A stretch of DNA of 42,494 bases from Alphaproteobacteria bacterium (GTDB lineage Bacteria; Pseudomonadota; Alphaproteobacteria; Micavibrionales; UBA2020): assembly GCA_016124645.1 (NCBI GenBank), contig WGNE01000048.1:1-42494 (forward strand), in the 5' to 3' direction. Below, piece by piece: positions 1,939-34,900 of the stretch. Under the pieces are notes generated by a model. The model was not told where the DNA came from, ran no database searches, and worked only from the letters and a program-made list of their open reading frames with translations. Position 1 is the first letter of the stretch. Each line of letters opens with the position of its first letter. Both the position numbers and the translations under genes were made by a program.

Positions 1939-2517
1939 ATGCTCGTTAGGGTGGAATTGAGCGAGGAAGATCTTAAGCTGGGACTTCGCCGCGTCTATGC
2001 GCAACTGGGCCGGAAAAGTCTTTTGATCATCTACATGATCGCCGTCGCCATCGGCATTGCCGTTGACAAGCCCTTGCTTGCCCTGCTTCAAAAGCAGGCT
2101 TTCTACAAAAGCATGCCGGCGGGCATGCAGGAGTTCGTCGCCATCGCGCTGTTCGTTGCGATTGTCTTGCTCGTTTTCCGCTTTCTCCTGCGCTACAGCC
2201 CGCAGCGCCAATACTACCGGCCCGAAGGCATCCTGCGTTCCTCAAGGGAAATCCGCATTGATCGCGACGGCGTTCATCAGGACGGCAAGCATTCCACCTC
2301 CCTGACCCGCTGGGGCGGCATCATGAAGATTCAAGAAGACAAGGACTTTATCCTTTTCTACGTCGATCCCGCCGCCGCCTACATCATCCCCAAACACTTC
2401 TTCGCCAGTCCCGAGGACGCCGCCGCTTTCGCCGCCCAAGCCCGGGATTTCTGGAACGCCGCGAAACAGGCGGAAACGGTAACCGGCAGCAACGACAGTG
2501 CGGCAGGCGCCGCATGA
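1939..2517 (+). CDS. YcxB-like membrane protein
   Basis: A protein of 192 residues from the ATG at 1939, which has GGAGG upstream at 1923-1927; an in-frame ATG at 1900 would add 13 residues without a better site. Two membrane helices lie near residues 27-43 and 65-85. After them comes a soluble beta-rich domain with the YcxB-like C-terminal pattern: a 'DRDGVHQDG' turn, then a tryptophan-containing strand (TRWGGIMKI), then strands ending in a 'YIIPKHFF' motif. YcxB-like proteins are widespread, membrane-bound and functionally uncharacterised. The stop overlaps the start of the C13 peptidase gene (ATGA), so the two are very likely co-translated. Confidence 0.7.
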   Translation: MLVRVELSEEDLKLGLRRVYAQLGRKSLLIIYMIAVAIGIAVDKPLLALLQKQAFYKSMPAGMQEFVAIALFVAIVLLVFRFLLRYSPQRQYYRPEGILRSSREIRIDRDGVHQDGKHSTSLTRWGGIMKIQEDKDFILFYVDPAAAYIIPKHFFASPEDAAAFAAQARDFWNAAKQAETVTGSNDSAAGAA

Positions 2518-3867
2518 AATGGTACCTCCAGAATTTGCGGTGCGGGCTAAGAACCGCATTCTTCTTCCCGGCGCCGCAGCGCTTTATCGGTTCGTGGCAT
2601 GCCCTTATGGCGATTGCCGCCACCTTTGTTTTATCGCAGCTGGCGATGGAATTCGCCATAGACGGAACCGGCGGGGAAATCGCCTATTCCTGCGGCAAAT
2701 ATCTCGCTTGCCTGTTCAGCCTCACCCTCATCGCTTCCTATATTAGCGGATACGCGGCGCGCCAGAGCGACAGGATTCTCGATATCGCCGTCGCGTTTTT
2801 AAACAGTTATTATTTCATCTTTCTTGCATATGCCTTCCTGATCATTTCAGACCCTGACAGCTTCTATGAAAGCGGATCTGCGGCATCGTACCAAGAGCTT
2901 ATCCCCATATGGGCTTTTTTGGTCATGTTTCGTATCGTCAGCGACATCTGCAGCCCGGAACTCAAAAAACTCGTCGTTTCGGGCGTCATCGCCGCCGCAG
3001 CCCTCTATCTGCTGAACTCGCACGTTTATTTCAGCCGCATCTATTACGTCGAGGAACCGGAACCGCAAAGGGCGGCCTCCCCGCTGGACAAGATGACGAG
3101 CGAGGAACTGTTCAACATGCAGGCGGGGCTGCGCGCGCAAGGCCTGAAGGGGCTGAAGAAATCGAAGCCGGGGCAGACGGATATCTACGCCCTGACCCTC
3201 GGCGCCTACGGCTATCAGGACGTTTTCATGCGCGACGTCAAATACGTCGGCGAGCGACTGAAAAGCAGGCTCGGCGTCACGAACATCATCCCCATGCTCA
3301 ACAACCGCGCCACGGTGCAAACGACCGCCCTTGCCGACGCAACCAACCTCAAGGCCTACCTGAAGCAGATCGCCGCGCATTACATGCAGCCCAAGGAAGA
3401 CATCCTGCTGCTTTTCATGACCAGCCACGGCGGGGCCAAGACCGGGCTGTCGGTCAATCTGGAGTATCGCTATAGCCTGATGGACATCACGCCGCAAATG
3501 CTGAAGAAGATTCTGGACGACAGCGGTATCCAGAACAGGATCATCGTCATTTCAGCCTGCTATAGCGGGACTTTTATCCCCGTGCTGAAGGACGCGCATA
3601 CGATCATCATGACGGCGGCCGCCAAGGACAGGGTTTCCTTCGGCTGCTCGGACCAGGAAAACCTCACCTATTTCACGCAGGCGTACTTCATGAACGGCCT
3701 GTCCGAAACGACGGATCTGGCGAAGGATTTCGACATCGCGAAGGAGGCCGTTCAAGCGCGAAAAATCCGAAGGCATCAAAACCCACTCCAACCCGCAAAT
3801 CTTCATCGGCAGCAAGATAAAAGAGGTTCTGCGCAACTACAAAGGCGCGGCCCTCGCCCCGAGATAA
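2514..3867 (+). CDS. Membrane-anchored C13 (legumain/caspase-fold) peptidase, apparent frameshift
   Basis: About five membrane helices (roughly residues 28-46, 62-80, 88-112, 128-146, 153-168) precede a soluble domain from about residue 190. That domain has the clan CD dyad: His305 in FMTSHGG and Cys349 in ISACYSG, each after a hydrophobic strand. This fits the bacterial Peptidase_C13 family. After residue 416 the reading frame turns into Arg/Gln-rich nonsense. Removing one A from the run at 3761-3765 restores a family-like C-terminus (KTHSNPQIFIG and onward) that stops at 3865-3867, giving about 450 residues. Left uncorrected, the frame runs by chance into cytidylate kinase. Either the base call is wrong or the gene is mutated; both catalytic residues lie before the shift. 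It is translationally coupled to the YcxB-like gene. Confidence 0.75.
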
Positions 3868-3959
3868 CAACCACGCTTTTTTTATTGCGCAACGCCTTGT
3901 TTTTATTTGGTAAAATGAGGCGATGCTTTCTCTGGCGACGCAGGGCGTTTTCATATAGA

Positions 3960-4694
3960 ATGGCACGCATGTCTGAACAGAACAAAAAAGTCATCATTGC
4001 CGTGGACGGCCCCGCCGCCAGCGGCAAGGGCACCTTCGCCAAGGCGCTGGCGTCGCGGCTTGGCTATGCCTATCTCGATACCGGCTCGATCTACCGCGCC
4101 ATCGCCCATGAGGTGCTGGAACGCGGCGGCGATCCTTCGAAGGTCGAGGACGTGCAGCAGGTTCTGGACACCATCGAATATCCCCTGCCTGAAGCAATTT
4201 TGAAGAACCCCGACCTGCGCACCCCGCTGGTCGAGGACGCGACGCCGAAAATCGGCGCGATGCCCGAAGCGCAGGCCGCCGTGCGCGCCTATCAGGAAGC
4301 CTTCGTCAAGAACCCGCCCGGCAACGCCGGCGGCGCGGTGCTGGACGGGCGCGATGTCGGCACCTCCGTCTTCCCGAACGCCGACGTCAAGTTCTACGTC
4401 ACCGCCACGGCCGAGGAACGCGCGCGCCGCCGCTTCCTGCAGCAAAAGGACGCCAACCCCGGCCTGACGCAGGAAATGGTGCTGAAGGACATCAACCTGC
4501 GCGATGCGCGCGACATGAACCGCAAATCCTCCTCCCTGCGCGCCGCGGACGACGCGCATATCCTCGACACGACTCATGATACGGCCGCCGAGGCGCTTGA
4601 AAAAGGCGTCGCCATCGTGAAAGCCAGGCTCGCGCCGCCGACTGAGCCGCGCATTAAAAAGACCGGCGGCAAAAAATTTCGTTTCGGGCCTTAA
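3960..4694 (+). CDS. cmk: Cytidylate kinase
   Basis: This is a (d)CMP kinase, phosphorylating CMP and dCMP with ATP in pyrimidine nucleotide supply. Visible features are the P-loop GPAASGKGT near the N-terminus, LDTGSIYRA after it, the nucleotide-monophosphate segment LDGRDVGT, and the lid-like RDARDMNRKSSSL followed by ADDAHILDT. These are the standard Cmk landmarks, and about 240 residues is a normal length apart from a basic tail. The start is either ATG 3960 or ATG 3969; neither has a strong Shine-Dalgarno site. The sequence upstream reads in frame with the end of the peptidase ORF only because of the frameshift there, and the kinase itself begins here. Confidence 0.92.
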   Translation: MARMSEQNKKVIIAVDGPAASGKGTFAKALASRLGYAYLDTGSIYRAIAHEVLERGGDPSKVEDVQQVLDTIEYPLPEAILKNPDLRTPLVEDATPKIGAMPEAQAAVRAYQEAFVKNPPGNAGGAVLDGRDVGTSVFPNADVKFYVTATAEERARRRFLQQKDANPGLTQEMVLKDINLRDARDMNRKSSSLRAADDAHILDTTHDTAAEALEKGVAIVKARLAPPTEPRIKKTGGKKFRFGP

Positions 4695-5213: not shown

Positions 5214-8135
5214 TTATGCGCCGGGGTCCAGTATCCTGCCCAGATAAATATCCAGCAAGGCATCATCCGCGGCCGGCACGACAATGCCGGAACCTTCAAG
5301 AGCCTTGTCCGTCCGCGCCATGTCGAAAGCGATGCCGGTCGCCTGAAACAGGTCCATGGCGCGGTATCGCTCGAAAATATCCCTCGGCATGCAGCGGCAC
5401 AGCGCCATGAAGGCCGCCGCCCCGTCGGCGGAGAGCAGCCCTTCCCTTTCGCGCGACTGCATCGCCGCCAGCCATTGCGCGCGCGGCAGCACGGCGACGG
5501 GCCTTTCCGCCCGCGCCAGCCCCGCAAGAATGGCCTTCAGGCTGAAGCCCCGCGTATTGGCGATGTGGAATGTGCCCGCTTCTCCCGCGCGGATGATGTG
5601 CGAGAGCGCCCGCGCCGCGTAATCGACCGGCGTGACGTCAAGCATCAGGCGGTCGTGCCCGCCCTCCGGCACGGCGCCGATCGAGAGCAGGCCGCGCACG
5701 AACATCGCGAGGAAGTCATGCGCCGAGGCCGCGCCGCTTCGCGTGTCCCCGCAGACGAGGCCCGGCCTATAGACGGAAAGCCCCGCCGCGAGCGCGGGAA
5801 TATGGTGCAGCAGCACCTCCGCCGCCCATTTGCTTTGCGCATAGCCGCCATAGACCGTCCGCGTTTCCTGCAGCGCATCGTCTTCGAAAACCCGGCCCGT
5901 GTTCCGCTCCGTCGCGACGAAGACGGAAAGCGTGGAAAAATAATGCAGCCGCTTTGGGGCCCCCTCCAGCGTCAGCCGCGCCGCCGTCGCCGTGCCGCAA
6001 AGGTTCGCCGGACGCAGGGCGGCATAGGGCAGCACCACGTTGACCGTGGCCGCACCATGGATGACCGTATCGAGCCCTTGCGCCAGCGCATCCCAGTCAT
6101 CCCGCGCAAGGCCGAAGCGCGACAGGGCGAGGTCGCCGCGAACGGGGGTGACGCGTTCTTGCAAATCCTCCGGCAGGCCGAGGCGCGCGCGGGCCTGTTC
6201 GTCGCTTTCCGCCCGCACCAGCGCATGGACGTGGGCGTCACCCTCTTCCAGCAGCCGCCGCAGCAACGCGCTTCCCAAAAACCCGGTCGCGCCGGTGAAG
6301 AAAACGTTTTGCAGCTTTGGCGCGGGTCGCGCGGCGGGCGCGGGCATGTCGAGCAAATCCCTGAAATCGCCGTCGGACATCGCGTCGCGGCGCAGCGCCT
6401 GCGCTTCCATGCCCGGCGATTGCAGCGCGTCGCGCACCGTTACGGGCGCGGCCAGCCATTGCGCCTGCGCTTGCAGCGTCTGGAAATCATAGACCAGCGC
6501 GGGCGTCAGGTTGACGCCCCGCCGCTCCGCCTCCAGCGTCAATTCGAGCGCGGCGATGGAATCGCCGCCAAGGGAAAAGAAGCTCTTGTCCGCGGGGATG
6601 CGGGTTTTCTTCAGCACCTTTTGCCAGGCGGCAAGCAGGTCTTCTTCTTCCTGCGTGACTGGCTTGAAGTCTTTCCCCTCCTCGCCATATGGCACAGGCA
6701 CAATGCTTTCAAGCGCCCGGTAGTCGATCTTGCCGCTGGCGGTCTGCGGCATTTCATTCAAAAATTCGAAGCTTGCGGGCACCATCCACGCGGGCAGGCA
6801 GGTCTTCAACGCCGATGACAGCACGGCGGCGGAGAGCGCCTGCCCCGGCGCCGGGCAGACGAAAGCCGCCAGAATATCGCGCCCGTTTTGCGACCGCTTG
6901 AGCGCGGCGGCGCGGGCGACGCCCGGCAGGCGCGCGATCCTGCCCTCGACTTCTTCCAGCTCGACAAGTTGGCCGTTGATCTTGACCTGCCGGTCCAGCC
7001 GGCCGAGGAATTCGATATCCCCGTTCGCGTGCCGCCGCACGAGGTCGCCGGTGCGGTAAATCCTCTCCCCGCAGCGCAGGACGAATTTCTGCGCCGTCAG
7101 CGCCGGGCGGTTGAGATAGCCATCGGCCAGCTGCCGCCCGCCGATGCAAAGCTCGCTCTCCTGCGCCTCCCGCCCTTCGGCGTCGAGGATATGATAGATA
7201 ACGCCCGGCAGCGGCGCGCCGATCAGCGGGCGTTCCCAGCTTTCGGGATCGCAGCGGCACAGGCTGGTGCAGACGGTCGCCTCCGTCGGGCCATAGACGT
7301 TGACGAGATTGACGCGCGCCGCCCAGTCGCGCACCACGCCGGGCGGGCACGGCTCCCCGCCGATGACGACGGTCTGCAAGGTCGCGGGCATCTTCGCCGG
7401 ATCCGTCACCCGCAAGAGCGAGGGCGGAATGTCCATATAGGTAATGCCGCGCGCGGCGACGATCTCCGGCAGGTTCGCGGCCAGCGCGAGCCGCTCGCCC
7501 GTTTCGATGCACAGGCAGGCGCCGGACAAAAGCGCCGTGCCGATATCGGAAACCGAGGCGTCGAAACCCGTCGAGAGATAGAAAAGAGAGCGGCTTTGCG
7601 GCCCCAGCCCGAAGGCCGCGATCTGCGCGCGCAGCATGAAGACAAGCCCGCGGTGCGGGACGACGACGCCCTTCGGCTCGCCCGTCGAGCCAGAGGTATA
7701 GATGACATAGGCTGTGGTTTCCGGCGACAGCGATACGGGCGTGAAGCGGGCGGCGGGCATGTCCTGCATCCGCAGCTTTCCCTCTTCCCGCCCGATGACG
7801 GTTGCGGGCGCGGCGTCCCGCAAAATGAAATCCCGTCGCGCGGCGGGCAGCGCGGGGTCGAGCGGCATGAAGGCGCGCCCCGCATACCAGCAGCCCAGCG
7901 CGGCCACCACATAGTCCGCCGATTTCGGCAGGGCGACGGCGACAATCCCCGCCGGACAGTCGGAAAGCGCGGCGGACACCGCCTGCGCGCGCGTATCCAG
8001 CTCCGCGTAGGACAGCGCCGCCTGCCCGTCCGTCAGCACGGCGGTATTGTCGGGGAATTGCGCGGCGATACGGCGGAATTCATCCGTAAAGCCTGTGAAT
8101 GCGGCGGTTCCGGTATTTTTTTGCGCCTGCACCAC
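5214..8135 (-). CDS. NRPS-like adenylation-carrier-reductase (A-PCP-R) enzyme
   Basis: A single-module enzyme without a condensation domain. Residue numbers count from a TTG at 8159. The adenylation domain covers about 25-480, with YTSGSTGEPKGV, NVYGPTEAT, YRTGDL and the PxTASGK lysine at 477. The carrier domain has FFSLGGDSIAALEL with phosphopantetheine Ser534. The terminal NAD(P)H-dependent thioester reductase starts at FFTGATGFLGS (about 621) and has a downstream Y-x-x-x-K pair (YAQSKW). By family knowledge such enzymes activate a carboxylic or amino acid, load it on the carrier and release an aldehyde or alcohol. Start: GTG 8135 or 8132, just past the methyltransferase stop (8142-8140), fits translational coupling; TTG 8159 has no ribosome site. 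It is the last gene of the minus-strand run. Confidence 0.85.
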   Translation of the reverse strand: MVQAQKNTGTAAFTGFTDEFRRIAAQFPDNTAVLTDGQAALSYAELDTRAQAVSAALSDCPAGIVAVALPKSADYVVAALGCWYAGRAFMPLDPALPAARRDFILRDAAPATVIGREEGKLRMQDMPAARFTPVSLSPETTAYVIYTSGSTGEPKGVVVPHRGLVFMLRAQIAAFGLGPQSRSLFYLSTGFDASVSDIGTALLSGACLCIETGERLALAANLPEIVAARGITYMDIPPSLLRVTDPAKMPATLQTVVIGGEPCPPGVVRDWAARVNLVNVYGPTEATVCTSLCRCDPESWERPLIGAPLPGVIYHILDAEGREAQESELCIGGRQLADGYLNRPALTAQKFVLRCGERIYRTGDLVRRHANGDIEFLGRLDRQVKINGQLVELEEVEGRIARLPGVARAAALKRSQNGRDILAAFVCPAPGQALSAAVLSSALKTCLPAWMVPASFEFLNEMPQTASGKIDYRALESIVPVPYGEEGKDFKPVTQEEEDLLAAWQKVLKKTRIPADKSFFSLGGDSIAALELTLEAERRGVNLTPALVYDFQTLQAQAQWLAAPVTVRDALQSPGMEAQALRRDAMSDGDFRDLLDMPAPAARPAPKLQNVFFTGATGFLGSALLRRLLEEGDAHVHALVRAESDEQARARLGLPEDLQERVTPVRGDLALSRFGLARDDWDALAQGLDTVIHGAATVNVVLPYAALRPANLCGTATAARLTLEGAPKRLHYFSTLSVFVATERNTGRVFEDDALQETRTVYGGYAQSKWAAEVLLHHIPALAAGLSVYRPGLVCGDTRSGAASAHDFLAMFVRGLLSIGAVPEGGHDRLMLDVTPVDYAARALSHIIRAGEAGTFHIANTRGFSLKAILAGLARAERPVAVLPRAQWLAAMQSREREGLLSADGAAAFMALCRCMPRDIFERYRAMDLFQATGIAFDMARTDKALEGSGIVVPAADDALLDIYLGRILDPGA

Positions 8136-8139
8136 GCCG

Positions 8140-8910
8140 TTACACCGGCTTTCGCGCAAGGCAGATAAAACGCGGGCTGTCCGCCGTTACCGCCGCGCCG
8201 GTGATATCCGCCATGGAGGCGGCATCTTCGAAACCGCAGCGGCGCAGCATCTCCTCTATATCCTCCGGCTTGTACATGCGCGTTTCGCCGGTGCGCTCCA
8301 CGCGCCGCCCGTCGGTATAGCTGTATATCCACCGCGAGCAACGCATCGCGCGGTCAAGGTCTAGCCGGTATTCGCGCACGAAAGTCACCCCGCCGCCTTC
8401 CGGCAGGGGCTTGCTGTAGGAAACGCTGTCGCGGAAATGCGTGATTTCATAGGCGGCGTTTGAATATTCGATGCCGCAGCGACCGCCGGGCTTCAGGCTG
8501 TCGAAAAGCCGCTGCACCATGCGGATGTTCGCCGCGTCGTCGTCGAAAAAGCCGAAGCTGGTCCACCAGTTGATGGCGGCGTCGCAGGGCGCGGGCGCGA
8601 CGAAGGTGAAGGCGTCGCCGACGTGGTAATCGCCTTTCGCATCCGCCTTGTGCGCGGCAGCGATGTAATCCGCCGACTGGTCGATGCCGGTGATGCGCAG
8701 CCCCTTGCGCGCCAGCACCGAGGACATGCGCGCGCTGCCGCAACACTGGTCGAACAGCCGGTCGCCGGGCTTGAGACCGAAGGTCTCGATGATGAAATCC
8801 GTCTCGGCATCCAGTTTGTCCTCATCATGCCAGTCTTCCGTAACCAGCGTGAAGGAGTCGTCGTAAAAATCTTTCCACCATGCGCTTTCCTGCAATCTTT
8901 TTTCCTTCAC
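8140..8910 (-). CDS. Class I SAM-dependent methyltransferase
   Basis: A 256-residue protein with a Methyltransf_25-like fold. Motif I is LFDQCCGSARMSS (residues about 52-64), the acidic ribose-binding residue lies in ITGIDQSADYI, and later segments are GDAF, AINWWTSFGFF and the LKPGGRCGIEYS post-motif. The substrate is not evident; the WWTSFGFF segment is typical of small-molecule methyltransferases. The gene starts one base after the asparagine synthetase stop, and its own stop lies next to the start of the A-PCP-R gene. It therefore very probably modifies the product or an intermediate of that enzyme. Confidence 0.8.
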   Translation of the reverse strand: MKEKRLQESAWWKDFYDDSFTLVTEDWHDEDKLDAETDFIIETFGLKPGDRLFDQCCGSARMSSVLARKGLRITGIDQSADYIAAAHKADAKGDYHVGDAFTFVAPAPCDAAINWWTSFGFFDDDAANIRMVQRLFDSLKPGGRCGIEYSNAAYEITHFRDSVSYSKPLPEGGGVTFVREYRLDLDRAMRCSRWIYSYTDGRRVERTGETRMYKPEDIEEMLRRCGFEDAASMADITGAAVTADSPRFICLARKPV

Positions 8911-8911
8911 C

Positions 8912-10819
8912 CTAGCCCCCTTGCAGCCCGAATTTCTGCCCGATGAAGAAGGCGGTCAGCATCATCATCAGCGGCGGTTCAGCCGCTATCCGTTCGGCCT
9001 CGGGCGCCGCGGCCAGCGCGTCGAGCCAGTCCCTCACCCTCTTCGCGTCGAAAAATCCCATGCGCGCGAAAGCGGCGGAGCGCAACGTGTCCTGCAAGCG
9101 CGCGTCGAGCGCGGGCGCGCGGCTGACGGGCGGCGCGATGAAAGGGTGCTTTTGGCGCTTGTACACGGCTTCCGTCAGCAGCGGGCGCGCCGCTTCGCGC
9201 AGCACGTATTTTTCGACCATGTCGCGGATTTTCAGGTGCATGGGCATCTGCCGCGCCAGCTCGAACAGCCGGTGGTCGAGGAAGGGCACGCGGCCTTCCA
9301 CCGCATGGGCCATTTCGCAACCGTCGCCCAGCGTTTTCAGGATATACCCCGCCAACACCATCTTCGTCCAGAGATAGGAGGACTGGTTGACGACGTGCCG
9401 CGCGGCCAGCTGGCCCCCGACATCGAAAGCCGCGACGACTTCCGCATAGACGTCGCGGTGGCGCATGGCCTCTGCGTAATCATCCGCCAGCAGGGCGGTC
9501 ATGCGGCGGCCGAGCGAGGCCTTGGCCTTCAGGAACGAGGGCAGGTAGCCCAGCGCCTCCTCCACGGCCTGCGTCGGCAAGGTCTCCCCATGCGCGAGGA
9601 AAAGTCCCGCAAGCTTGCTGTTGCTCTGGTAAAGCGCGGCGCGGCGCGGCTCCTGCGCGGCGTCGAGAGCGATCATGTCCTCGCGGAAATGGGGGTAGCC
9701 CGCCAGCAGTTCGTCCGCCCCTTCCCCGCTCAGCGAGACCTTGAAGCCCGCGGCGTGGATGGCGCGGTTGAGCAGGAATTTTCCCGCAAGGTGGCCGTTG
9801 ACGGCCATCCCCTCGCTGTAATAGACCGCATCGGGAATGTAATCCACCATGTCCTGCGCGGAGACCTCGACGGCGTGCAGCTCCGCCCCCATGCGCGCCG
9901 CCATCTCCCGTGCGACGGGGAATTCGTCGTAGCCTTCCTGCGCGAAGCGCACGGTGAAGCAGGTGACGGGCGCGGCGGAGAGTTTCGCCGCCGTCGCGGC
10001 GATTGCGCTTGAATCGATGCCGCCGCTCAAGTGAAAGCAGACCGGCACGTCCGAACGCAGGCGCAGCCGGACGGCGGTTTCGAATTCCCCGCGGAACAGC
10101 GAAATCCAGTCCGCGTCGCTGCGCGTGTCTTCCAGCGGTTCTTGCGGGTAGTCGATATCCCAGTATTTTTGCAGCGTCAGATGGCCGTTTTCGAAAACCA
10201 GCAGATGCCCCGGCTGCAGCTGGCGAACGCCCTCGAACAGCGTGCGGTCGGGCGGCGTGTATTGCACGCTGCAGGCATGGAAAAGAGCGTCGGCGTCCCA
10301 TGCGGCCGCAAAGCCCGCCGCGAAAATCGCCTTGGCTTCGGAAGCGACGTAGAGCGTGCCCGCCGCGTCCTGCGCGTAGCACAGCGGCTTGATGCCGAAA
10401 CGGTCGCGCGCGGCGACCAGGCGGTTGTTCTTCGCGTCATGCAGCACCAGCGCGAATTCGCCGCGCAGTCGGCTGGTGAAGGCAAGGCCGTATTGCTCGT
10501 AGAGATGCAGGGCGATCTCGCTGTCCGAGGCGGTGCGGAAGCGGTGCCCCTGCCCCCGCAGCTCCTCGCGGATTTCCTCGAAGCCGTAGAATTCGCTGTT
10601 GACGATGATATGGAGGGTTTCATCCTCGTTCGCGATGGGCTGCGCGCCGTCGTCGAGCCCGATGATGCCGAGCCGCCGGTGGCCGAGGCCCGTATGGCCG
10701 TCGGGGGAAATCCAGAAACCCTCTCCGTCCGGCCCGCGGTGGGCCAGCGCATCCGCCGCGCGTTTCAGCCGCGCGCGTTCGACAGGAAGAGATGAGGAAA
10801 GGCTAATGAGACCACACAT
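8912..10819 (-). CDS. asnB: Glutamine-hydrolysing asparagine synthetase (class B) homologue
   Basis: At 635 residues it has both AsnB domains. The N-terminal glutaminase begins MCGLIS, so Cys2 is the nucleophile, and keeps LAHRGPDGEG and LGHRRLGIIGL. The ATP-pyrophosphatase domain has HLSGGIDSSAIAA and SGEGADELLAGY. One departure: the usual NGEIYN loop that forms the oxyanion hole reads NSEFYG, with Gly replaced by Ser. Family members make asparagine or, in biosynthetic clusters, amidate other carboxylates or form beta-lactams. The start overlaps the upstream dehydrogenase-like gene by 17 bases. The setting argues for a pathway-specific amide-forming role rather than housekeeping. Confidence 0.88.
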   Translation of the reverse strand: MCGLISLSSSLPVERARLKRAADALAHRGPDGEGFWISPDGHTGLGHRRLGIIGLDDGAQPIANEDETLHIIVNSEFYGFEEIREELRGQGHRFRTASDSEIALHLYEQYGLAFTSRLRGEFALVLHDAKNNRLVAARDRFGIKPLCYAQDAAGTLYVASEAKAIFAAGFAAAWDADALFHACSVQYTPPDRTLFEGVRQLQPGHLLVFENGHLTLQKYWDIDYPQEPLEDTRSDADWISLFRGEFETAVRLRLRSDVPVCFHLSGGIDSSAIAATAAKLSAAPVTCFTVRFAQEGYDEFPVAREMAARMGAELHAVEVSAQDMVDYIPDAVYYSEGMAVNGHLAGKFLLNRAIHAAGFKVSLSGEGADELLAGYPHFREDMIALDAAQEPRRAALYQSNSKLAGLFLAHGETLPTQAVEEALGYLPSFLKAKASLGRRMTALLADDYAEAMRHRDVYAEVVAAFDVGGQLAARHVVNQSSYLWTKMVLAGYILKTLGDGCEMAHAVEGRVPFLDHRLFELARQMPMHLKIRDMVEKYVLREAARPLLTEAVYKRQKHPFIAPPVSRAPALDARLQDTLRSAAFARMGFFDAKRVRDWLDALAAAPEAERIAAEPPLMMMLTAFFIGQKFGLQGG

Positions 10820-11735
10820 CCGGCCCCGCAGCGGAGAAGAAGAGCTTTTTGGATTCGCCGCGGCGGGAAAGGTCGAAGACGGTCTCGAAACGGTCCAGTG
10901 CGAAGACGTCGCCGAAAAGATCGTCGATGCGCAACAGGCCGGCGGCGACGAGGTCGATGCCCGCCTGGAAATCGCCGTAGCTGACGGCTTCCAGCGTGAT
11001 GTCCTTCATGACGAGATCGTTGACGCAGAAAGTGACCGGCGCGCGCTGGCGGCTTTTGAGGATGATGCGACCGCCGGGCCTGACGGCGCGGACCATTTTT
11101 TCGAAGCCCTCGCTCGTCGCCAGCGTTTCGATGATGAAGTCACAGGAGTTTTCGGCCAGCGGCATCTCCCTGTCGCAGACGGAAACCTTCATAAAGCCCT
11201 TCGCATTCAGAATGCGCTCCGTCAGGCGGGAAATGCGGTTGTCGCCGTAGATGACGCCCGTTTCACCCGGCGCGATCACCGCGTTCAGCACGGCCATGGA
11301 TGCCGCGATGGGCTCCATATAGGCGCCTTCCATGAGCGAGACGTTGTCCGGCAGCCGATAGACGGCGGAAGCGGGCGCGACGGTGAATTCGCTGAAAGCG
11401 CCGTCAAGGTCGATGCCCATCATCCGCGCCCCGGCGTAGGACGGCAGGCCGTTTTTCATTTTCCGGTCGTCCAGCGGCAGGAAAGGCATGACGGCGACGC
11501 GGTCGCCGGGCGATATGCCGGAAACGCCTGCGGACACGTCTTCGACGATGCCTGAAAACTCGTGCCCCAGCACCAGCGGGTCTTTCGAGGCGATGCGGCC
11601 CGCGGCGACTTCCATGTCCGTGCGGCACAGGCCCGCGAGCGCGATGCGGATCAGCACCCCGGCCTCGTCCCCCGCCGCCGGAAGGTCGATGTCGCGAAGC
11701 GAGACGTTATTCCCGTTTTTGACGAGGGCTTTCAT
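10803..11735 (-). CDS. Zinc alcohol dehydrogenase-like (MDR) protein with degenerate cofactor loop
   Basis: This is a medium-chain dehydrogenase/reductase fold of 310 residues, short for the family's usual 340-360. The catalytic-zinc side is recognisable: Cys37 and Asp40 in LCRTDME, His58-Glu59 in LGHEFSG, and Glu141 in YMEPIAAS. The four-cysteine structural zinc lobe is missing; that stretch has only polar residues (about 85-108). The Rossmann glycine loop, normally G-x-G-x-x-G, reads YGDNRISR (163-170). It may still bind a dinucleotide, but that cannot be assumed. The aldehyde or alcohol from the A-PCP-R enzyme is an obvious candidate substrate. It ends inside the start of asnB. Confidence 0.75.
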   Translation of the reverse strand: MKALVKNGNNVSLRDIDLPAAGDEAGVLIRIALAGLCRTDMEVAAGRIASKDPLVLGHEFSGIVEDVSAGVSGISPGDRVAVMPFLPLDDRKMKNGLPSYAGARMMGIDLDGAFSEFTVAPASAVYRLPDNVSLMEGAYMEPIAASMAVLNAVIAPGETGVIYGDNRISRLTERILNAKGFMKVSVCDREMPLAENSCDFIIETLATSEGFEKMVRAVRPGGRIILKSRQRAPVTFCVNDLVMKDITLEAVSYGDFQAGIDLVAAGLLRIDDLFGDVFALDRFETVFDLSRRGESKKLFFSAAGPDVWSH

Positions 11736-12273: not shown

Positions 12274-14190
12274 TTATTTGACGGATTGCTTTTCAAGTAA
12301 ACCCGTCAATTTTAGTATTACTCCAAGTGAGTATAACTTCGCTTCCTTGAAAAGCAAAGAACTTTCCCTAAAAAATGACGCGTCGAGCTCGCCTATGTCG
12401 CATTTATTACTTAAATATATAATTTTATTATCTTTTTTGCGGGTTAATTTAAGGCTTTGCCCGCCCTGTTCGAGCGTGATGGGACCCTTTTTCAAACCCG
12501 GATCACCGAAAAAGCGAAATCCCCGGCGGTAGCCGCCCTTCCCGTCCAGTTCGGTGAAGCTGTAGCCCTGCTGATACAAGTGTACATCCGCGATGCGCCC
12601 GGCGGGATCGCGACGGCAGGAAAGTACCAGCGCCCGCATGATCTCGTCCAGCGTTTCCGGCGCAAGCTGCTGGCGCTCGGCCAGGTGGAAGGTCACCGTA
12701 TGGGGCGGGAACATGTAGAAGCGGTCCTCGTTGACGACATAGGCGCGCGCTTCCACTTCCTTCATCCGCGCCTTCGTCGCCGCCGCGATTTTTGCGTGCA
12801 GCGCGTCGTAGCGGCGCACGAAATGCAGCGCGGCGATCTTGAGCAGGGCCAGCTCCTGCTCCGACGTCACGAAGTCGCCGCCGATCGCTTCCATGACCGC
12901 GTCGTGATAGGGCTGCTCCTCCTTCGTCAGTTTTTCCTTTTTGTCGCGGAAGCGGTTTTTCAGGCTCGTGTCGGCCATCGTGAAAACGCTTTCCTCGGCG
13001 AAGAAAGTTCCGGCGCGCTTTTGCAGCGGGTAGATGCGGAAGAAGGCGGAAAAATCGAACACCGGCAGCAGGGAGGCCTGCGCGTCCTTCGACGAGAAAG
13101 CCGCCATCTTCCGGTACGTCTTGCGCGCAAGCTCTGCCCAGAGTTCGCAGAGTTCCTCCACCTCCGGGCCGAAGCGCTTGCGGATGTCCGGCGCGGCGTC
13201 GAAGCCCATGAGGGTGATGAATTTTTCCTCCAGCCTGCACTTCATGGCCGTAAGCATCGCGTCCTTCAGCGCGTCATAGGTCACGCCCGCGCGGTTGAGC
13301 CGCTTGTCCTTCGCCACCGCCTCCAGCACCAGCAGCTGGCCCAGATGCTCGTAACCGAAATAGTTCTGGTGGTGCCAGCGCGTGGAGCTGTACTGCGGGG
13401 AGCGTCCCTTGGTCGCGCAGACCGTGTCGAAGTCGATGAGGTGCCCGGCGGGCGAGATATTGCCCGGCGACCACGTGCCGTGGACGAGCCTTTCCGCGAA
13501 CTTGTCCGCCTCCAGCAGGCCGAAGCCTTTCGCCATCTTCATCATCGCGGCCTTCGTCAGCGGCTTTTTCCGCTGGAAGAGATGCGTCACCCGGTCCAGC
13601 TCGCCGCTTGTATCGACGCGGATGATCTTGCCGCGCCGCACCGGCGCGTCGCGCCAGATGACGTCGCAGGTCTCGTCCATGTCCAGCACCGCCAGCACGG
13701 CGTTGAGCCCGTTGGCGAGCGCGCCCTGCAGCCCGTCGGCGATGAGCGTCTCCCACAGGCAGCGCTCCATTTCAAGGTAGCCGTCGGAAAACCTTTTCTG
13801 CTTCGATTTGGCCAGCGGCGTCTTTTCGCCCTTGATGTTGAAAATCTTTCCCGCGTACCACGCCCGGCCCGAGCCGCCGTTGCCCGACAGCGACAGGCCC
13901 AGCGGGTCGGCCTGCCGGTCAACGTAAGCGGTGCCGACGGCCTTTCCCTCCGCATTCTTTTTCTCGATGGTGATATTGAACCCGGCCTCGATCACCGCCG
14001 CCATTTCATGGAAGGACAGGCGCTTTTTGGGCGAGAGCAGTTTGTGGAACAGCGCCGCGTTGATATAGACCGCCTTGTATTGCCGCTTGCTGCGGTAAAC
14101 GGGCGTTTTCACGAAGGTGGACGCGCCCTGCCGCCCGACCGCGCCCGGGCGCTCCCGCAGCAGTTTTTCGAGTGTCTTCAAGGTCTGCAT
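12274..14190 (-). CDS. Divergent SelO-like (protein adenylyltransferase fold) protein
   Basis: A 638-residue protein. By eye it follows SelO/YdiU across two blocks. Residues 105-155: GGSGRAW, IFNIKGEKTPLA with Lys120 at the place of SelO's nucleotide-binding lysine, then SDGYLEMERCLWETLIADG. Residues 237-255: HGTWSPGNISPAGHLIDFD lines up without gaps with SelO's HGVMNTDNMSLLGLTLDYG. There Asn244 and Asp253 match the metal ligands, but the catalytic-base Asp is Gly243. A helical region with MGFD and RKTYRKMA resembles the next SelO segment. SelO transfers AMP from ATP to protein hydroxyls. Activity here is uncertain. The last 65 or so codons are in AT-rich DNA unlike the rest. The start overlaps the upstream methyltransferase-like gene by 13 bases. 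Confidence 0.6.
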   Translation of the reverse strand: MQTLKTLEKLLRERPGAVGRQGASTFVKTPVYRSKRQYKAVYINAALFHKLLSPKKRLSFHEMAAVIEAGFNITIEKKNAEGKAVGTAYVDRQADPLGLSLSGNGGSGRAWYAGKIFNIKGEKTPLAKSKQKRFSDGYLEMERCLWETLIADGLQGALANGLNAVLAVLDMDETCDVIWRDAPVRRGKIIRVDTSGELDRVTHLFQRKKPLTKAAMMKMAKGFGLLEADKFAERLVHGTWSPGNISPAGHLIDFDTVCATKGRSPQYSSTRWHHQNYFGYEHLGQLLVLEAVAKDKRLNRAGVTYDALKDAMLTAMKCRLEEKFITLMGFDAAPDIRKRFGPEVEELCELWAELARKTYRKMAAFSSKDAQASLLPVFDFSAFFRIYPLQKRAGTFFAEESVFTMADTSLKNRFRDKKEKLTKEEQPYHDAVMEAIGGDFVTSEQELALLKIAALHFVRRYDALHAKIAAATKARMKEVEARAYVVNEDRFYMFPPHTVTFHLAERQQLAPETLDEIMRALVLSCRRDPAGRIADVHLYQQGYSFTELDGKGGYRRGFRFFGDPGLKKGPITLEQGGQSLKLTRKKDNKIIYLSNKCDIGELDASFFRESSLLFKEAKLYSLGVILKLTGLLEKQSVK

Positions 14191-15801: not shown

Positions 15802-16779
15802 ATGAAAAAGACGACAGGCATGGTCCTCGGCAAGTTCATGCCCCTGCACCGGGGACACGAGCTGCTGCTCAATTTCGCCGCGAATTTCGTCGATGAGCTC
15901 TACGCCGTCACCGACTGGCAGGAGGAAATCGACGGCGAAAAGCGTTGCGAGTGGCTGCGCCGCACCGTGCCGCAGGCGCAGGTCTTTTACCTTGAAACCC
16001 CCATGCCGCAGGCGCCCGAGGACCACCCCGATTTCTGGAACATCTGGCGAAGCGCGCTGCTGGGCGCCATGCCGCAAAAACCGGATTACGTCTTCGCTTC
16101 CGAGCAATACGGCTTCAAACTGGCCGAGGTGCTGGGCGCGACCTTCATTCCCTTCGACCTCAAGCGCGAAAGCGTCGGCATTTCGGCGACGCAGATACGC
16201 GGCAACGTCTATGACCAGTGGGATTACCTTTCCGCCGCCGCGAAGCGCGACTACCTTGCGCGGGTCTGCGTCTTCGGGCCGGAATCATCGGGCAAGTCCA
16301 CGCTCGCGCGGCAGCTGGCCGAGCATTACAAGACGACATGGGTGCCAGAATACGCGCGGCTCTTCATCAAAACCAAGGGCGACCCCGCACGGGAGGACAT
16401 GATCCATATCGCCCGCGGCCAGGCCGCGCTCGAAGACGCGATGGCCCCCGCCGCCAGCCGCTGGCTGTTCTGCGACACCGACCCGCTGGCGACGACGGTC
16501 TGGAGCCGCTGGCTGTTCGGCGAGAGCCCGGAGCCCCTCGCCGCTCTCGCGCGCGAACGGCATTACCGGCTCTACCTGCTGACGGACGCGCGCCTGCCGT
16601 GGAAGGGCGACGCCGTTCGCTATTTCCCCGGCAAGGGGGATGAATTCCTCGCCGACTGCGTCAAGACGCTGGAAAGCGAGGGCCGCGCCTATGCGCTGGT
16701 CGAGGGCAGCGGCGCGGCGCGGCTGGAAAACGCCGTGGCGATTCTCGAGGCCGCGAAGGAAGAGTTTTTCAGGCTATAG
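15802..16779 (+). CDS. NadR-like NMN adenylyltransferase / ribosylnicotinamide kinase
   Basis: Two domains as in NadR but without the N-terminal DNA-binding helix-turn-helix. The nucleotidyltransferase domain has HRGH at residues 16-19 and GISATQIRG (about 126-134, the ISxTxIR motif). The kinase domain has the P-loop GPESSGKST (159-167) and a DTDPLAT segment later. Together these make NMN from nicotinamide riboside and NAD from NMN in the cytoplasm. At 325 residues it fits a NadR lacking its repressor part, so a repressor role is not expected. It follows the sulfotransferase by 7 bases. Its stop overlaps the converging oxygenase gene by 6 bases. Confidence 0.85.
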   Translation: MKKTTGMVLGKFMPLHRGHELLLNFAANFVDELYAVTDWQEEIDGEKRCEWLRRTVPQAQVFYLETPMPQAPEDHPDFWNIWRSALLGAMPQKPDYVFASEQYGFKLAEVLGATFIPFDLKRESVGISATQIRGNVYDQWDYLSAAAKRDYLARVCVFGPESSGKSTLARQLAEHYKTTWVPEYARLFIKTKGDPAREDMIHIARGQAALEDAMAPAASRWLFCDTDPLATTVWSRWLFGESPEPLAALARERHYRLYLLTDARLPWKGDAVRYFPGKGDEFLADCVKTLESEGRAYALVEGSGAARLENAVAILEAAKEEFFRL

Positions 16780-17604
16780 GCGAAGATAATCCTGCAGCGT
16801 GCTGCCGCGCGAGAGGTTATCCACGTTCGGCGCCCCCCTGCCCGCTTTTTCGTCGCCGCGGTGGACGATCCTGAAATCGACGCTGAAGCGCGTGAGCCCC
16901 GACAGGTTGCGGCAGTTGCCGTGCAGATGCGCGGCGGAAAAGATGACCATGTCGCCCGCGCCGCATTCGAAAGAAACGGCTTTTTTCTCCGGCACCTTCC
17001 GCGTGGCGGCGGGATAGAGGGCGTTCGGCGTGCGGCCCTTGGCCACGCCGAAGCCGGTGCTTTCCCGCCAGACGCCGTAATCGAACACGCCGGAAGAATT
17101 TTTGACGGGTTTGCCGAAATATTCGGGATAAAAGAAGAAGCCCTGCGTGGGCCGGATGTCGAAAAGCGGCACCCAGACGTTGACCTGGCTTTGCGGGTTG
17201 GCGTACCAAGTATCACGGTGGACGGCATAGGCGGCCTTCGCCTGCTCGTTCAAAAACCCTTCGTGCAGGGCGATGCGAAAACGCACCGGGTCCCAAGACA
17301 GATTCTTCGCGCTGAAGCCAAGGCTTTCCGCCACGCGCGCAACATGCGTCGCGCCGAAACCCGGTTCGGCAACGGCCTGCTTCAGCCACTGGTAGGCGGG
17401 CAGGAAATCCTCCTGCGGACAATCCTCGTGCAGCGCCTCGACGCTCTCCGGCCCGTCGAAAGCCCGCATCAGCCGGTTTTTCGCCGCGCGCACGTAGGCC
17501 TTCGTCGCCGCATTGGCGGGCAGGACGTAAATATCGCCGTCGTAAAGGCTGCGGCGCAGCGCGGCGTTGGTCTTCGGCAATTGACGGCGGTATTCGAAAC
17601 TCAT
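16774..17604 (-). CDS. Fe(II)/2-oxoglutarate-dependent oxygenase (phytanoyl-CoA dioxygenase-like)
   Basis: A 276-residue protein with the facial triad of the family. His129-x-Asp131 (AVHRDTW) is followed by an NVWVPL strand, then a distal histidine at 226 or 228 (SAAHLHGN), and Arg239 (GLTRFSVDFR), the usual 2-oxoglutarate carboxylate partner. The segment GDMVIFSAAHLHG is typical of PhyH-type enzymes. The reaction is probably hydroxylation of a small molecule, and the substrate cannot be read. It is convergent with the NadR-like gene and stands alone on its strand. Its distance from the biosynthetic run means any functional link is conjecture. Confidence 0.75.
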   Translation of the reverse strand: MSFEYRRQLPKTNAALRRSLYDGDIYVLPANAATKAYVRAAKNRLMRAFDGPESVEALHEDCPQEDFLPAYQWLKQAVAEPGFGATHVARVAESLGFSAKNLSWDPVRFRIALHEGFLNEQAKAAYAVHRDTWYANPQSQVNVWVPLFDIRPTQGFFFYPEYFGKPVKNSSGVFDYGVWRESTGFGVAKGRTPNALYPAATRKVPEKKAVSFECGAGDMVIFSAAHLHGNCRNLSGLTRFSVDFRIVHRGDEKAGRGAPNVDNLSRGSTLQDYLRL

Positions 17605-24595: not shown

Positions 24596-25780
24596 TCAAA
24601 GATGCATCAGCCTGTTGATCGAGAAGACCGACGTAAAGAGGATATTCATGAACTTCTGGAATTCCACGGCCGGCGCGTCCGCGATGTAAATAATATCCTT
24701 GTCGCGCACCGGAAAATTCTGCGCGATCAGGAAAGAACCCGGGTCCTTCAGGTCGAGACGGTACACCACGGGCACCTTGCCGTCCGCGTTGTGCGGCAGG
24801 GGCTTGCCGTCGTCGTCCTCGACGGCCGCCGGGTCTTCGAAACGGAAGATGAATATCCCCTGCGGATCCGCCAGATCATCCGAAAGACCGCCAATCCGGC
24901 CTATCGCCTGCGACAATGTGATGCCCTTCGCCTCGAAGTTGATCTCGGAGCTTTGCCCCGTGCGGGTCTGTCCCGTCGCGCCCATGGCCGTGAAGCTCAA
25001 GGGCTGGTACAGTGCGGTCACGACGTCGCCGGCGTTCAGGTAGATGTTTTGCTTGGGGTCCCGCGTGATCGAGGAAAGCGGCATGGATTCCGCTTTCCCG
25101 TTGCGGGTGATCTGGATTGTCATCTTATCGAACGCCTGCCGCACGCCGCCCGCCATGGCCAGCGCATCCAGCAAGCGTTCGCCCTTGGCGGTCAGCTGCA
25201 TGCGCGTACTTTGCCCGACTTCCCCGACGACGGTCACGTTGGAAGAAAAATTATGCGCCACCTGGACAAGCACCTGCGGCTGATGCGCCTTGTTATGGAG
25301 GCGTTTGACGATTTCGGTCTCGATCTGATGCGGAGACTTGCCGGCCGCCTGTATCTGGCCCGCAAAGGGAACGTCGATCTTTCCATTCCGCTCCACCATT
25401 TGCGGAGGAAGCTTCGTCACCGGCGTCATGAAAAGCGCGGAGGGCTGGGCTTCCCAGATAACGACGGACAGCAAATCCCCCGCGCCGACGGAATAATCCG
25501 TCGCCTGATCGTCGCCGAAAACTTCGGAAAACAGGGTTTTTTTCCGTGCCTCGGAAACGCGGCGCGCCACGTCATCGTTTATGTCGATGATCTTCACCGA
25601 GGAACTCAAGAGGCTTTTTGTTTCGACCTGCATCTTGTCCGGCCCTGAAGACGGCAGGAACGTGGGCGTGCCGGAGCACCCGGCCAGACTGGCCGTGCCA
25701 GCCCATACGAGCATAAGCCGCAGAGCGCGCCAGAAAGAACAGGGCTGTTTTACTTTAACGCCGGAACCTGGGTTGTTCAT
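24596..25780 (-). CDS. Outer-membrane polysaccharide export lipoprotein (Wza/KpsD type)
   Basis: I start it at ATG 25780, giving about 394 residues, because a lipoprotein signal follows: basic start, hydrophobic VWAGTASLAGC with the lipobox Cys at 35. The frame extends upstream to 25861 with no clear signal, so the start is open. The mature protein has the Poly_export pattern (SVGAGDLLSVVIWEAQP), then V-x-V-x-G-x-V SLBB-like segments (SSNVTVVGEVGQSTRMQL), and a C-terminal helix region. The length is Wza-like rather than that of the 560-residue E. coli KpsD. With KpsE it would form the periplasm-spanning exit for capsule. It is separated from rmd by about 140 bases with a candidate promoter. 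Confidence 0.85.
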   Translation of the reverse strand: MNNPGSGVKVKQPCSFWRALRLMLVWAGTASLAGCSGTPTFLPSSGPDKMQVETKSLLSSSVKIIDINDDVARRVSEARKKTLFSEVFGDDQATDYSVGAGDLLSVVIWEAQPSALFMTPVTKLPPQMVERNGKIDVPFAGQIQAAGKSPHQIETEIVKRLHNKAHQPQVLVQVAHNFSSNVTVVGEVGQSTRMQLTAKGERLLDALAMAGGVRQAFDKMTIQITRNGKAESMPLSSITRDPKQNIYLNAGDVVTALYQPLSFTAMGATGQTRTGQSSEINFEAKGITLSQAIGRIGGLSDDLADPQGIFIFRFEDPAAVEDDDGKPLPHNADGKVPVVYRLDLKDPGSFLIAQNFPVRDKDIIYIADAPAVEFQKFMNILFTSVFSINRLMHL

Positions 25781-25837
25781 ATTCCCGTGCCATGACTCGC
25801 AATTAGGTCCCCGCAGTCTTCTCAACGGGGGTATTTC

Positions 25838-25866
25838 TTTATGCATAGACTTGATTTTCAATACAA
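25838..25866 (-). promoter_or_regulatory. Candidate promoter for the export lipoprotein gene
   Basis: On the minus strand TTGTAT (25866-25861) and CATAAA (25843-25838) stand 17 bases apart in an AT-rich gap between rmd and the lipoprotein gene. This is the only sizeable gap in the capsule run. Each box matches its consensus only partly. Confidence 0.28.
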
Positions 25867-25922
25867 CTTTCCCGCAGTAAACTCAAGTGAACCGCTCATT
25901 TATTTCCTTAACGTCGCCAACT

Positions 25923-26843
25923 TCAGCCCTGCATCGCAGCACTTTGCCCCAGCATCCATCGGAGCGTCTCATTCAGTGGGATATCGGATACCTCTCCCAC
26001 CATCGCCACCAGCCTGTCACGGCTGCCCAGAAGCCGCTTTATCTCGTTTTGCCGGACGAAGGCGGGGTTGACCCTTACCTCGAAATCATGGCCCGAAATC
26101 CCCCGCACCATGTCGAGCACTTCTTGAAGCGTATGGGCCTTGCCGGAACAAATGTTGAAAGTGCCGCCCGCGGCCGTTTCGCATTCCAGCAGCCGCCTGT
26201 AGCACTGCACGACGGTGCGCACATCGGAAAAATCGCGCGCGACATCCAGATTGCCCAGTTCGATCAGCGGCGCGGCGCGCAGGACATGGCTCACGATCTT
26301 GGGCAGCAGGAAGTTTTCCGCCTGTCCGACGCCGGTATAATTGAACGGGCGCGTGATGATGAGCGGCAGGCGGCCGGCATATAGTTTCGCCATATATTCC
26401 ATGGCAAGCTTGCTGACAGCGTAATCATTGGCGGGCGCGGGCGGCGTATCCTCGTCCAGAACGCCGCCGCCCGCGTTGCCGTAAACGCTGGCGCTGCTGG
26501 CCAGCAGAACGGACCGCGGGGCTTGACCGGGCTGGCCCAACGCCTCCAGCAGGTTGCGGGTGCCCATGATATTGGTGCGGTATATTTCGTCCGCGTCGCC
26601 ATGCGCCACGAAAGAAATGGCCGCGAGGTGCGCCACCACATCCGGCCGAACCTCCTTCACGACTTTTGCGAGCCCGCCCGCATCGGCAAGATCGCAAAGG
26701 TGCATTGCGCCGACGCCGGGGATTTCAGTATCCGGCTCCTTGAGCGCAAGCCCCGCCACATCGTATCCCGCGCCGGAAAGTTCCTGTGCCAGATACCTGC
26801 CGGTAAATCCCCCTGCTCCGGTAATCAGCGCGCGTTTGGCCAT
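25923..26843 (-). CDS. rmd: GDP-4-keto-6-deoxy-D-mannose reductase-like SDR
   Basis: A 306-residue extended SDR. The Rossmann loop is ALITGAGGFTGRYLAQEL, a Ser is in LASSASVYGN, and the catalytic Tyr-x-x-x-Lys is in NDYAVSKLAMEYMAK. ITRPFNYTGVGQAENFLLPK matches the Rmd/GDP-sugar reductase pattern. With Gmd two genes upstream, it probably reduces GDP-4-keto-6-deoxy-D-mannose to GDP-D-rhamnose. A GDP-6-deoxy-talose or other epimer product cannot be excluded. It lies 18 bases after the sulfotransferase pair. Confidence 0.75.
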   Translation of the reverse strand: MAKRALITGAGGFTGRYLAQELSGAGYDVAGLALKEPDTEIPGVGAMHLCDLADAGGLAKVVKEVRPDVVAHLAAISFVAHGDADEIYRTNIMGTRNLLEALGQPGQAPRSVLLASSASVYGNAGGGVLDEDTPPAPANDYAVSKLAMEYMAKLYAGRLPLIITRPFNYTGVGQAENFLLPKIVSHVLRAAPLIELGNLDVARDFSDVRTVVQCYRRLLECETAAGGTFNICSGKAHTLQEVLDMVRGISGHDFEVRVNPAFVRQNEIKRLLGSRDRLVAMVGEVSDIPLNETLRWMLGQSAAMQG

Positions 26844-26861
26844 GTGCTCCCGCCTTTCCGT

Positions 26862-28028
26862 TTATCCGGTTACTTCAATGTTAAGGACAGCCGGCTCAAA
26901 ACCGATGTTTTCGAGCCATGTGACGTTTTCCTGCACGAGTGTCAGGACGAGTTGGTATGTTCCCGTGTTTTCCGGCGCCTGTACCTGCATGCTCAACGGC
27001 AATTTTTTACCGGGCATGATCTTTTCCGTCGGCAATGGTGTGCGAAGGCCGTTGAAGGTCAACATCTCGCCGGAGGATTCCAGCCAATGGTAAGACGCCG
27101 TGAGAGGGCGCAGCCTGTCACCGACCCATGCCGCATCATCTGCATTGACGATCTCCACATCGATACGGGATTTCGATCCGGCTGCCAGGCTTTCCGGCGC
27201 AACGCCGCTAACGAAGATGTTTCCCTTAACCTTCGTCATAGGGGCTATGTACCCTGTTTCTTCATGCTTTTGCCATTCCACCACGGCCGGGACATCCCCC
27301 GAGGAATGCGCATCATTGTCCTGCATCGATGCTTTCCATGCGCGTATTCTCTCATGCAGGCGCAAGTCCAGCCGGTTCAAGGCGACGATACGCTTTCTTA
27401 AGGAAGGCGCCAGCTGCCGGCTATCCGGGCGGTCGCTCGTGACGTTCCTGCGGTTAATCTGTTCCGAGGCGGGAATGCGTATCAGCCGGGCTATATCGGC
27501 GATAAAACGCGGCATATCCTCGTATATGCCGACGACATCATATTGTCGGATCGCGGCAAAGGCGTTTTCGACTTTTTCATCGTCGGATTGCGGATTTGCG
27601 GAGAATATCCGGCAGAAATGTTCAGTCGTGTAGTTGCTTATGTTTTCCGCGCCGGGAAAATCCGCACCGCCCTTCCCCTCCAAAAAGAGCTTGGCTCCCG
27701 AATACTCGGACGGCGTGCCCGCTTCGTTGCTTACGACGAAATAAAGCCAGGAGATGACGCGGTCCACCGGCTCGCGCAGGCAGGTCATGTACTGATAGCG
27801 CGGATCAAAACCTTCACCGGGAATAAAAGAGACATGGCTGGAGATGATCGAATAGTCGCCCCCGTATGCCCGGATTAATTCACGATGCTGCCCGCCGCCG
27901 GCCAGCGGTTGCGTTATGCACCCCGTTCCCAGCGCTTCCGTCAGCCAGGAGTTGACGGCTGTTCCGGCCGTCTTGGGGATATGGTCGAAGATGACGCGTC
28001 CGGGGAAAGCTTTAAGGCTTTTCATCAT
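26862..28028 (-). CDS. Sulfotransferase with C-terminal Ig-like module (first type)
   Basis: A 388-residue protein. The N-terminal sulfotransferase domain has the PAPS 5'-loop FDHIPKTAGTAVNSWL (about 14-29) and the 3'-phosphate motif CLREPVDRVISWLYF (about 83-97). Residues 269-388 are a beta-sandwich-like module with YHW, NGLRTPLP, PGKKLP, VQAPENTGTY and LVLTLVQENVTW. Similar modules occur on bacterial glycosyl- and methyltransferases, probably for substrate or partner binding. The sister gene next to it carries the same module on a different sulfotransferase domain. It overlaps that gene by ATGA. It probably sulfates the capsule polymer. Confidence 0.78.
   Translation of the reverse strand: MMKSLKAFPGRVIFDHIPKTAGTAVNSWLTEALGTGCITQPLAGGGQHRELIRAYGGDYSIISSHVSFIPGEGFDPRYQYMTCLREPVDRVISWLYFVVSNEAGTPSEYSGAKLFLEGKGGADFPGAENISNYTTEHFCRIFSANPQSDDEKVENAFAAIRQYDVVGIYEDMPRFIADIARLIRIPASEQINRRNVTSDRPDSRQLAPSLRKRIVALNRLDLRLHERIRAWKASMQDNDAHSSGDVPAVVEWQKHEETGYIAPMTKVKGNIFVSGVAPESLAAGSKSRIDVEIVNADDAAWVGDRLRPLTASYHWLESSGEMLTFNGLRTPLPTEKIMPGKKLPLSMQVQAPENTGTYQLVLTLVQENVTWLENIGFEPAVLNIEVTG
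26865..27224 (-). repeat. Duplicated Ig-like module, copy 1
   Basis: Encodes residues 269-388 of the first sulfotransferase. It aligns without gaps over 120 residues with copy 2 at 28058-28417; I count about 55 identities by hand. The best-preserved part is the C-terminal 60 residues, and DNA similarity is also visible there. Confidence 0.75.
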
Positions 28029-29188: not shown

Positions 29189-29200
29189 CTTCCTTATCCT

Positions 29201-32874
<3,674 letters not shown>

Positions 32875-32906
32875 CAAAGCCCCCTCGCGTGATGTTCAAT
32901 GCTGTT

Positions 32907-34890: not shown

Positions 34891-34900
34891 AATCCGTCAA

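Follow-up and report, generated by a model that had tools for sequence, protein, structure and literature searches.

A conserved gene set in three bacterial phyla that may link carrier-protein reductive chemistry to a NadR-like kinase/nucleotidyltransferase

The window analysed here, a whole stretch of 42,494 nucleotides from an alphaproteobacterial genome, may well encode an apparently undescribed pathway in which up to six enzymes would make a small metabolite from an amino acid by reduction, amidation, phosphorylation and nucleotide coupling. The conserved unit consists of a dehydrogenase (ADH), an AsnB-type amidotransferase, an A-PCP-R protein and a NadR-like kinase/nucleotidyltransferase; a methyltransferase and a PhyH-family dioxygenase are frequent but optional members. 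All six families are present in the window:

5214-8159, minus strand: A-PCP-R, a stand-alone NRPS-like reductase (Pfam, NCBIfam and motifs; clade of 27 relatives)
about 6729-8078, about 6453-6641 and about 5238-6308, minus strand: its A, PCP and R subdomains, respectively
8140-8910, minus strand: class I SAM methyltransferase with the family motif NWWTSFG (Pfam)
8912-10819, minus strand: AsnB-type glutamine-dependent amidotransferase with Cys2 and the ATP-binding loop SGGIDSS (Pfam, NCBIfam)
10803-11735, minus strand: probable zinc-type medium-chain dehydrogenase, the first gene of the operon (ADH_N)
15802-16779, plus strand: NadR-like bifunctional protein, nucleotidyltransferase (GKFMPLHRGH, ISATQIR) plus P-loop kinase (GPESSGKST)
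16774-17604, minus strand: PhyH-family Fe(II)/2-oxoglutarate dioxygenase with HxD, H and R ligands

Read on the minus strand from 11735 to 5214, the operon runs ADH, AsnB, methyltransferase, A-PCP-R. As the first-pass annotation had described, the four genes touch or overlap on one strand: all four reading frames are open, neighbours abut or share at most 20 bases, and the domains were confirmed. The A-PCP-R frame was taken to start at a TTG codon at 8159, overlapping the methyltransferase stop, and GTG codons just past this stop, near 8135, are equally possible starts. Its product (P0001) matched the Pfam families AMP-binding (3e-65), PP-binding (2e-12) and NAD_binding_4, of the thioester-reductase type (2e-50), exceeded the cut-off of the NCBIfam thioester reductase model TIGR01746 and, again in agreement with the annotation, contained no condensation domain in the Pfam search. 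Its motifs are intact, with FFSLGGDS in the PCP (phosphopantetheine serine) and both TGATGFLG (NAD(P)H) and YGGYAQSK (YxxxK) in the R domain. It is the sole NRPS-type protein found in its own genome, the second match being a 29% identical adenylating enzyme. The AsnB protein (P0003) begins with Met-Cys (MCG), matched Asn_synthase (8e-81) and GATase_7 in Pfam, and scored 441 bits against a cut-off of 267 for the NCBIfam asparagine synthase model TIGR01536; its place in the cluster suggests that it acts on a carboxylate other than aspartate. P0002 is a class I methyltransferase of a family with the NWWTSFG motif in common, and P0004 matched ADH_N (4e-22) in Pfam. Residues C37, H58, E59 and E141 of the ADH are invariant across copies, and its glycine motif is G[ND]NR[IF] in most of them and GxGR[IF] in others. 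This unusual motif was dropped as a distinctive trait, as it shades into GxGRIA in Myxococcota and Cyanobacteriota.

The four-gene pathway proposed earlier, comprising activation and reduction, amide formation and methylation, is still the natural reading of these genes, but it is incomplete: the view that they form the whole unit was rejected, since the NadR-like and PhyH genes, the former core and the latter frequent, accompany the set elsewhere and lie close by here. In the window both are found 4-6 kb past the four-gene interval with four genes between, a separation that counts against our preferred explanation. One protein encoded between the two halves (12274-14190, minus strand; 638 residues) had no Pfam or NCBIfam match. 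The PhyH protein was confidently modelled as an Fe(II)/2OG dioxygenase: its predicted structure (pLDDT 91.5) had PtlH as the nearest fold, a double-stranded beta-helix (probability 1.00, TM 0.54-0.57), and H129, D131, H228 and R239 were invariant in 17/17 aligned copies. In one genome, G027, methyltransferase and PhyH dioxygenase are fused in a protein of 506 residues (L036 1066-2586).

A search of 55 related genomes recovered A-PCP-R relatives at 42-50% identity, in operons ordered ADH-AsnB-[methyltransferase]-[PhyH]-A-PCP-R-NadR, the bracketed genes being missing beside the cluster in some genomes. Within the alphaproteobacterial order of the window, 16 of 142 genomes carried an A-PCP-R; a set of 385 genomes of the class, with two candidates scored per genome, yielded no full-length A-PCP-R outside this order, only A-domain matches. 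It was further present in 9 of 284 genomes of Myxococcota, the phylum to which Labilithrix belongs, and among 292 genomes of Cyanobacteriota, the phylum that includes Obscuribacterales, a protein of this clade was found together with its gene company in G436, G528 and G542; five unrelated cyanobacterial A-PCP-Rs lacked that company. Two loci, L179 and L180, show the order ADH-AsnB-methyltransferase-PhyH-A-PCP-R. The recurrence of these genes in three phyla (that of the Alphaproteobacteria, Myxococcota and Cyanobacteriota), largely in a constant order, puts the cluster beyond chance. A common or plasmid-borne cluster was rejected, the top plasmid matches being only about 35% identical. In a maximum-likelihood tree the 27 cluster A-PCP-Rs grouped together (100/100) to the exclusion of ten others, and within this clade the myxococcotal proteins were a single group (99/96). 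Pairwise distances of ADH, AsnB and A-PCP-R were correlated with r of 0.87-0.92, which partly reflects shared species history. The lower value for NadR against A-PCP-R (r 0.60) counts against our explanation.

The NadR-like gene is closely tied to A-PCP-R. Within the order it occurred in 16 of 142 genomes, namely 15 of the 16 with A-PCP-R and one other (hypergeometric P of about 4e-18, kinship ignored). The only A-PCP-R genome lacking it is G027, where A-PCP-R is cut by the contig end, and the only NadR-like genome without A-PCP-R is G470, with a nucleotidyltransferase part. Outside the order it was present in 10 of 12 cluster genomes: linked in G437, G893, G965, G1066 and G1071, unlinked in G528, G542, G878 and G1004, and split in G1019. 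In G436 and G834 no NadR-like gene was found, which counts against our explanation; the last steps may be dispensable there or these MAGs may be incomplete, and, many genomes being drafts or MAGs, gene absences are weak evidence. In seven alphaproteobacterial genomes, forming one clade, the A-PCP-R frame continues into a NadR-type kinase domain. The myxococcotal genome G1019 has a kinase with the P-loop GPESAGKST fused likewise, and its nucleotidyltransferase is a lone 189-residue protein. Because these fusions sit on separate branches of the tree, at least two fusion events likely occurred. In genus g3 the P-loop has gone from the stand-alone NadR and is intact in the fused kinase. Read most simply, these arrangements would mean that the pathway requires a functional copy each of the kinase and the nucleotidyltransferase. 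G028 has a stand-alone NadR-type kinase of 183 residues (L025 11496-12047) immediately behind A-PCP-R and ahead of a full NadR-like gene, an arrangement that could mark a step leading to, or following from, the fusion found elsewhere.

To which substrate this machinery is applied was approached through the A domain. The ten-letter code, for which motif anchors rather than a structure were used, was DASD[IV]GV[VI]CK in the readable copies and conserved across phyla, with Labilithrix differing (DAADIGVIC). The code for Glu and Gln is DAQDLGVVDK, and the Arg consensus has Asp278 (PMC12283262). Since the cluster code agrees with the Glu/Gln code at 7/10 positions and likewise with the Arg code at 7/10, the substrate is likely an alpha-amino acid with a polar side chain; that both codes fit equally well is an ambiguity that counts against our explanation.

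We infer the chemical steps and their order as follows. The A domain would adenylate the polar alpha-amino acid and load it onto the PCP, the R domain would release it with NAD(P)H as an amino aldehyde or amino alcohol, and the ADH would set the oxidation state. AsnB would convert a carboxylate to a carboxamide and, where present, the methyltransferase would methylate and the PhyH dioxygenase hydroxylate. The NadR-like kinase would then phosphorylate the alcohol, and the nucleotidyltransferase domain of the same protein would couple the phosphate to a nucleotide. This logic would be akin to the conversion of choline to phosphocholine and CDP-choline, and hence to Kennedy-type activation (a kinase, then a nucleotidyltransferase, on an amino alcohol), although the protein families differ. 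In its full form, as a new pathway class of distant phyla in which an alcohol or amide made by A-PCP-R from an amino acid is phosphorylated and nucleotide-coupled by a repurposed NadR to a nucleotide-activated or NAD-like compound, we put the proposal forward tentatively. Our explanation of the cluster is favoured by the syntenic operon in the order and by the recurrence of its gene company in Myxococcota and Cyanobacteriota, as well as by the co-occurrence and kinase fusions of NadR, the NadD and PnuC pattern described below, the conserved A-domain code and the lack of such company for the five unrelated cyanobacterial A-PCP-Rs.

The NadR-like protein could instead be a conventional enzyme of NAD salvage that happens to lie beside the cluster, for instance supplying cofactor for the R domain and the ADH. 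True NadR proteins are its best solved relatives and, like NadR (NMN adenylyltransferase/ribosylnicotinamide kinase), NadR-like proteins have two domains with the GKFxPxxxGH, ISxTxxR and P-loop motifs, so that both active sites are represented. However, the protein of the window scored 221 bits against the cut-off of 341 for TIGR01526, which was exceeded in none of the 55 genomes. Where solved NadR proteins have WEYGR in the kinase, the NadR-like proteins have PEYAR or a close variant, and M, F or I stands in place of the Tyr of SDY; these alterations of the kinase pocket may change the substrate. A salvage enzyme is also hard to reconcile with the near-complete lack of the gene in cluster-free genomes of the order and, as a difference from NadR, with its tie to A-PCP-R and the detachment of the kinase and its fusion to A-PCP-R in some genomes. 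Since canonical NadD was found in 11 of 12 cluster genomes (the exception being the window's own incomplete genome) and PnuC was absent from 11 of 12, a role in NAD salvage seems unlikely, and we regard this explanation as improbable; the genome context likewise speaks against activity on nicotinamide riboside and NMN.

Regarding the product, the first-pass annotation had expected a small aldehyde, alcohol or heterocycle. The lack of a condensation domain agrees with this, and known A-T-R systems with reductive release and no condensation yield such free compounds; the kinase would then act on an intermediate or in self-protection, and no nucleotide would be involved. The two cluster genomes without a NadR-like gene would fit as well. 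Against it, G1019 retains a separate nucleotidyltransferase despite its fused kinase, and g3 retains the nucleotidyltransferase domain though the attached kinase is dead. Because the NadR-like enzyme belongs to the conserved unit, a phosphorylated or nucleotide-linked product would be likelier than an aldehyde or heterocycle in free form, and we hold the free product to be rather unlikely. NadR-type enzymes couple AMP with a ribosyl carboxamide ring. Such chemistry, together with a carboxamide that AsnB could supply, would also suit an NAD-like dinucleotide cofactor whose carboxamide-bearing ring is built from an amino acid, and the conserved set has no transporter or resistance gene, as suits an internal metabolite; it has no phosphoribosyltransferase or other ribose-attaching enzyme either, which leaves such a cofactor a long shot. 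The product might finally decorate the capsular polysaccharide whose genes occupy a later part of the window: glycosyltransferase and capsule-export genes are found at about 20-37 kb, and NDP-activated groups are typical donors. Distant copies of the cluster have no flanking genes in common, and this use appears very improbable.

Other features of the window were noted in passing. A polysaccharide locus, mostly on the minus strand (24596-37416), encodes an export protein, KpsM-like and ATP-binding transporter subunits, glycosyltransferases and nucleotide-sugar enzymes. Next to it on the minus strand (37443-42454) are encoded a polyketide-synthase-like protein (methyltransferase-like, ER, KR, ACP) whose start lies beyond the window edge and, directly after this protein within the same interval, a BioF/serine-palmitoyltransferase-type alpha-oxoamine synthase, a pair reminiscent of the RkpA/RkpG capsule genes of rhizobia. 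On the plus strand (2514-4694), a C13-type peptidase domain and a complete cytidylate kinase share a single open frame; the linker between them resembles out-of-frame sequence, so that this may reflect a frameshift or an error of assembly.

When known systems were compared with the cluster, the solved R domain nearest to that of A-PCP-R was that of MxaA, which carries out reduction to the alcohol. MxcG was the best NCBIfam match, yet it reached only 485 bits against a cut-off of 2300. Lys2, valdiazen-type A-T-R proteins, the glycine-betaine reductase ATRR and the terminal module of MxcG share the A, PCP and thioester-reductase domains, and ATRR makes an amino alcohol, choline (PMC11050029). 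Unlike reductases of the Lys2, ATRR and MxcG type, the A-PCP-R described here forms its own clade, has AsnB, ADH and NadR-like partners and in some copies bears a C-terminal kinase fusion. Both AsnB domains are intact, as in asparagine synthetase, the XrtA/PEP-CTERM amidotransferase and the hydroxyamidotransferase 7ylz, but in contrast to these the AsnB of the cluster is a family of its own, with 47-55% identity across the order, and stays under the cut-off for the named EPS subfamilies. The first-pass annotation had not recognised the combination, and we likewise found no published cluster matching it in the open-access papers searched.

Co-occurrence and repeated gene fusion would tie reductive carrier-protein chemistry to a NadR-like enzyme, and a few purified enzymes would suffice to test the connection; to our knowledge, such chemistry had not been linked before to a NadR-type kinase/nucleotidyltransferase. 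NadR-like genes in genomes of this kind may be misannotated as NAD salvage genes, and the occurrence of the set in three phyla suggests a metabolite of general role.
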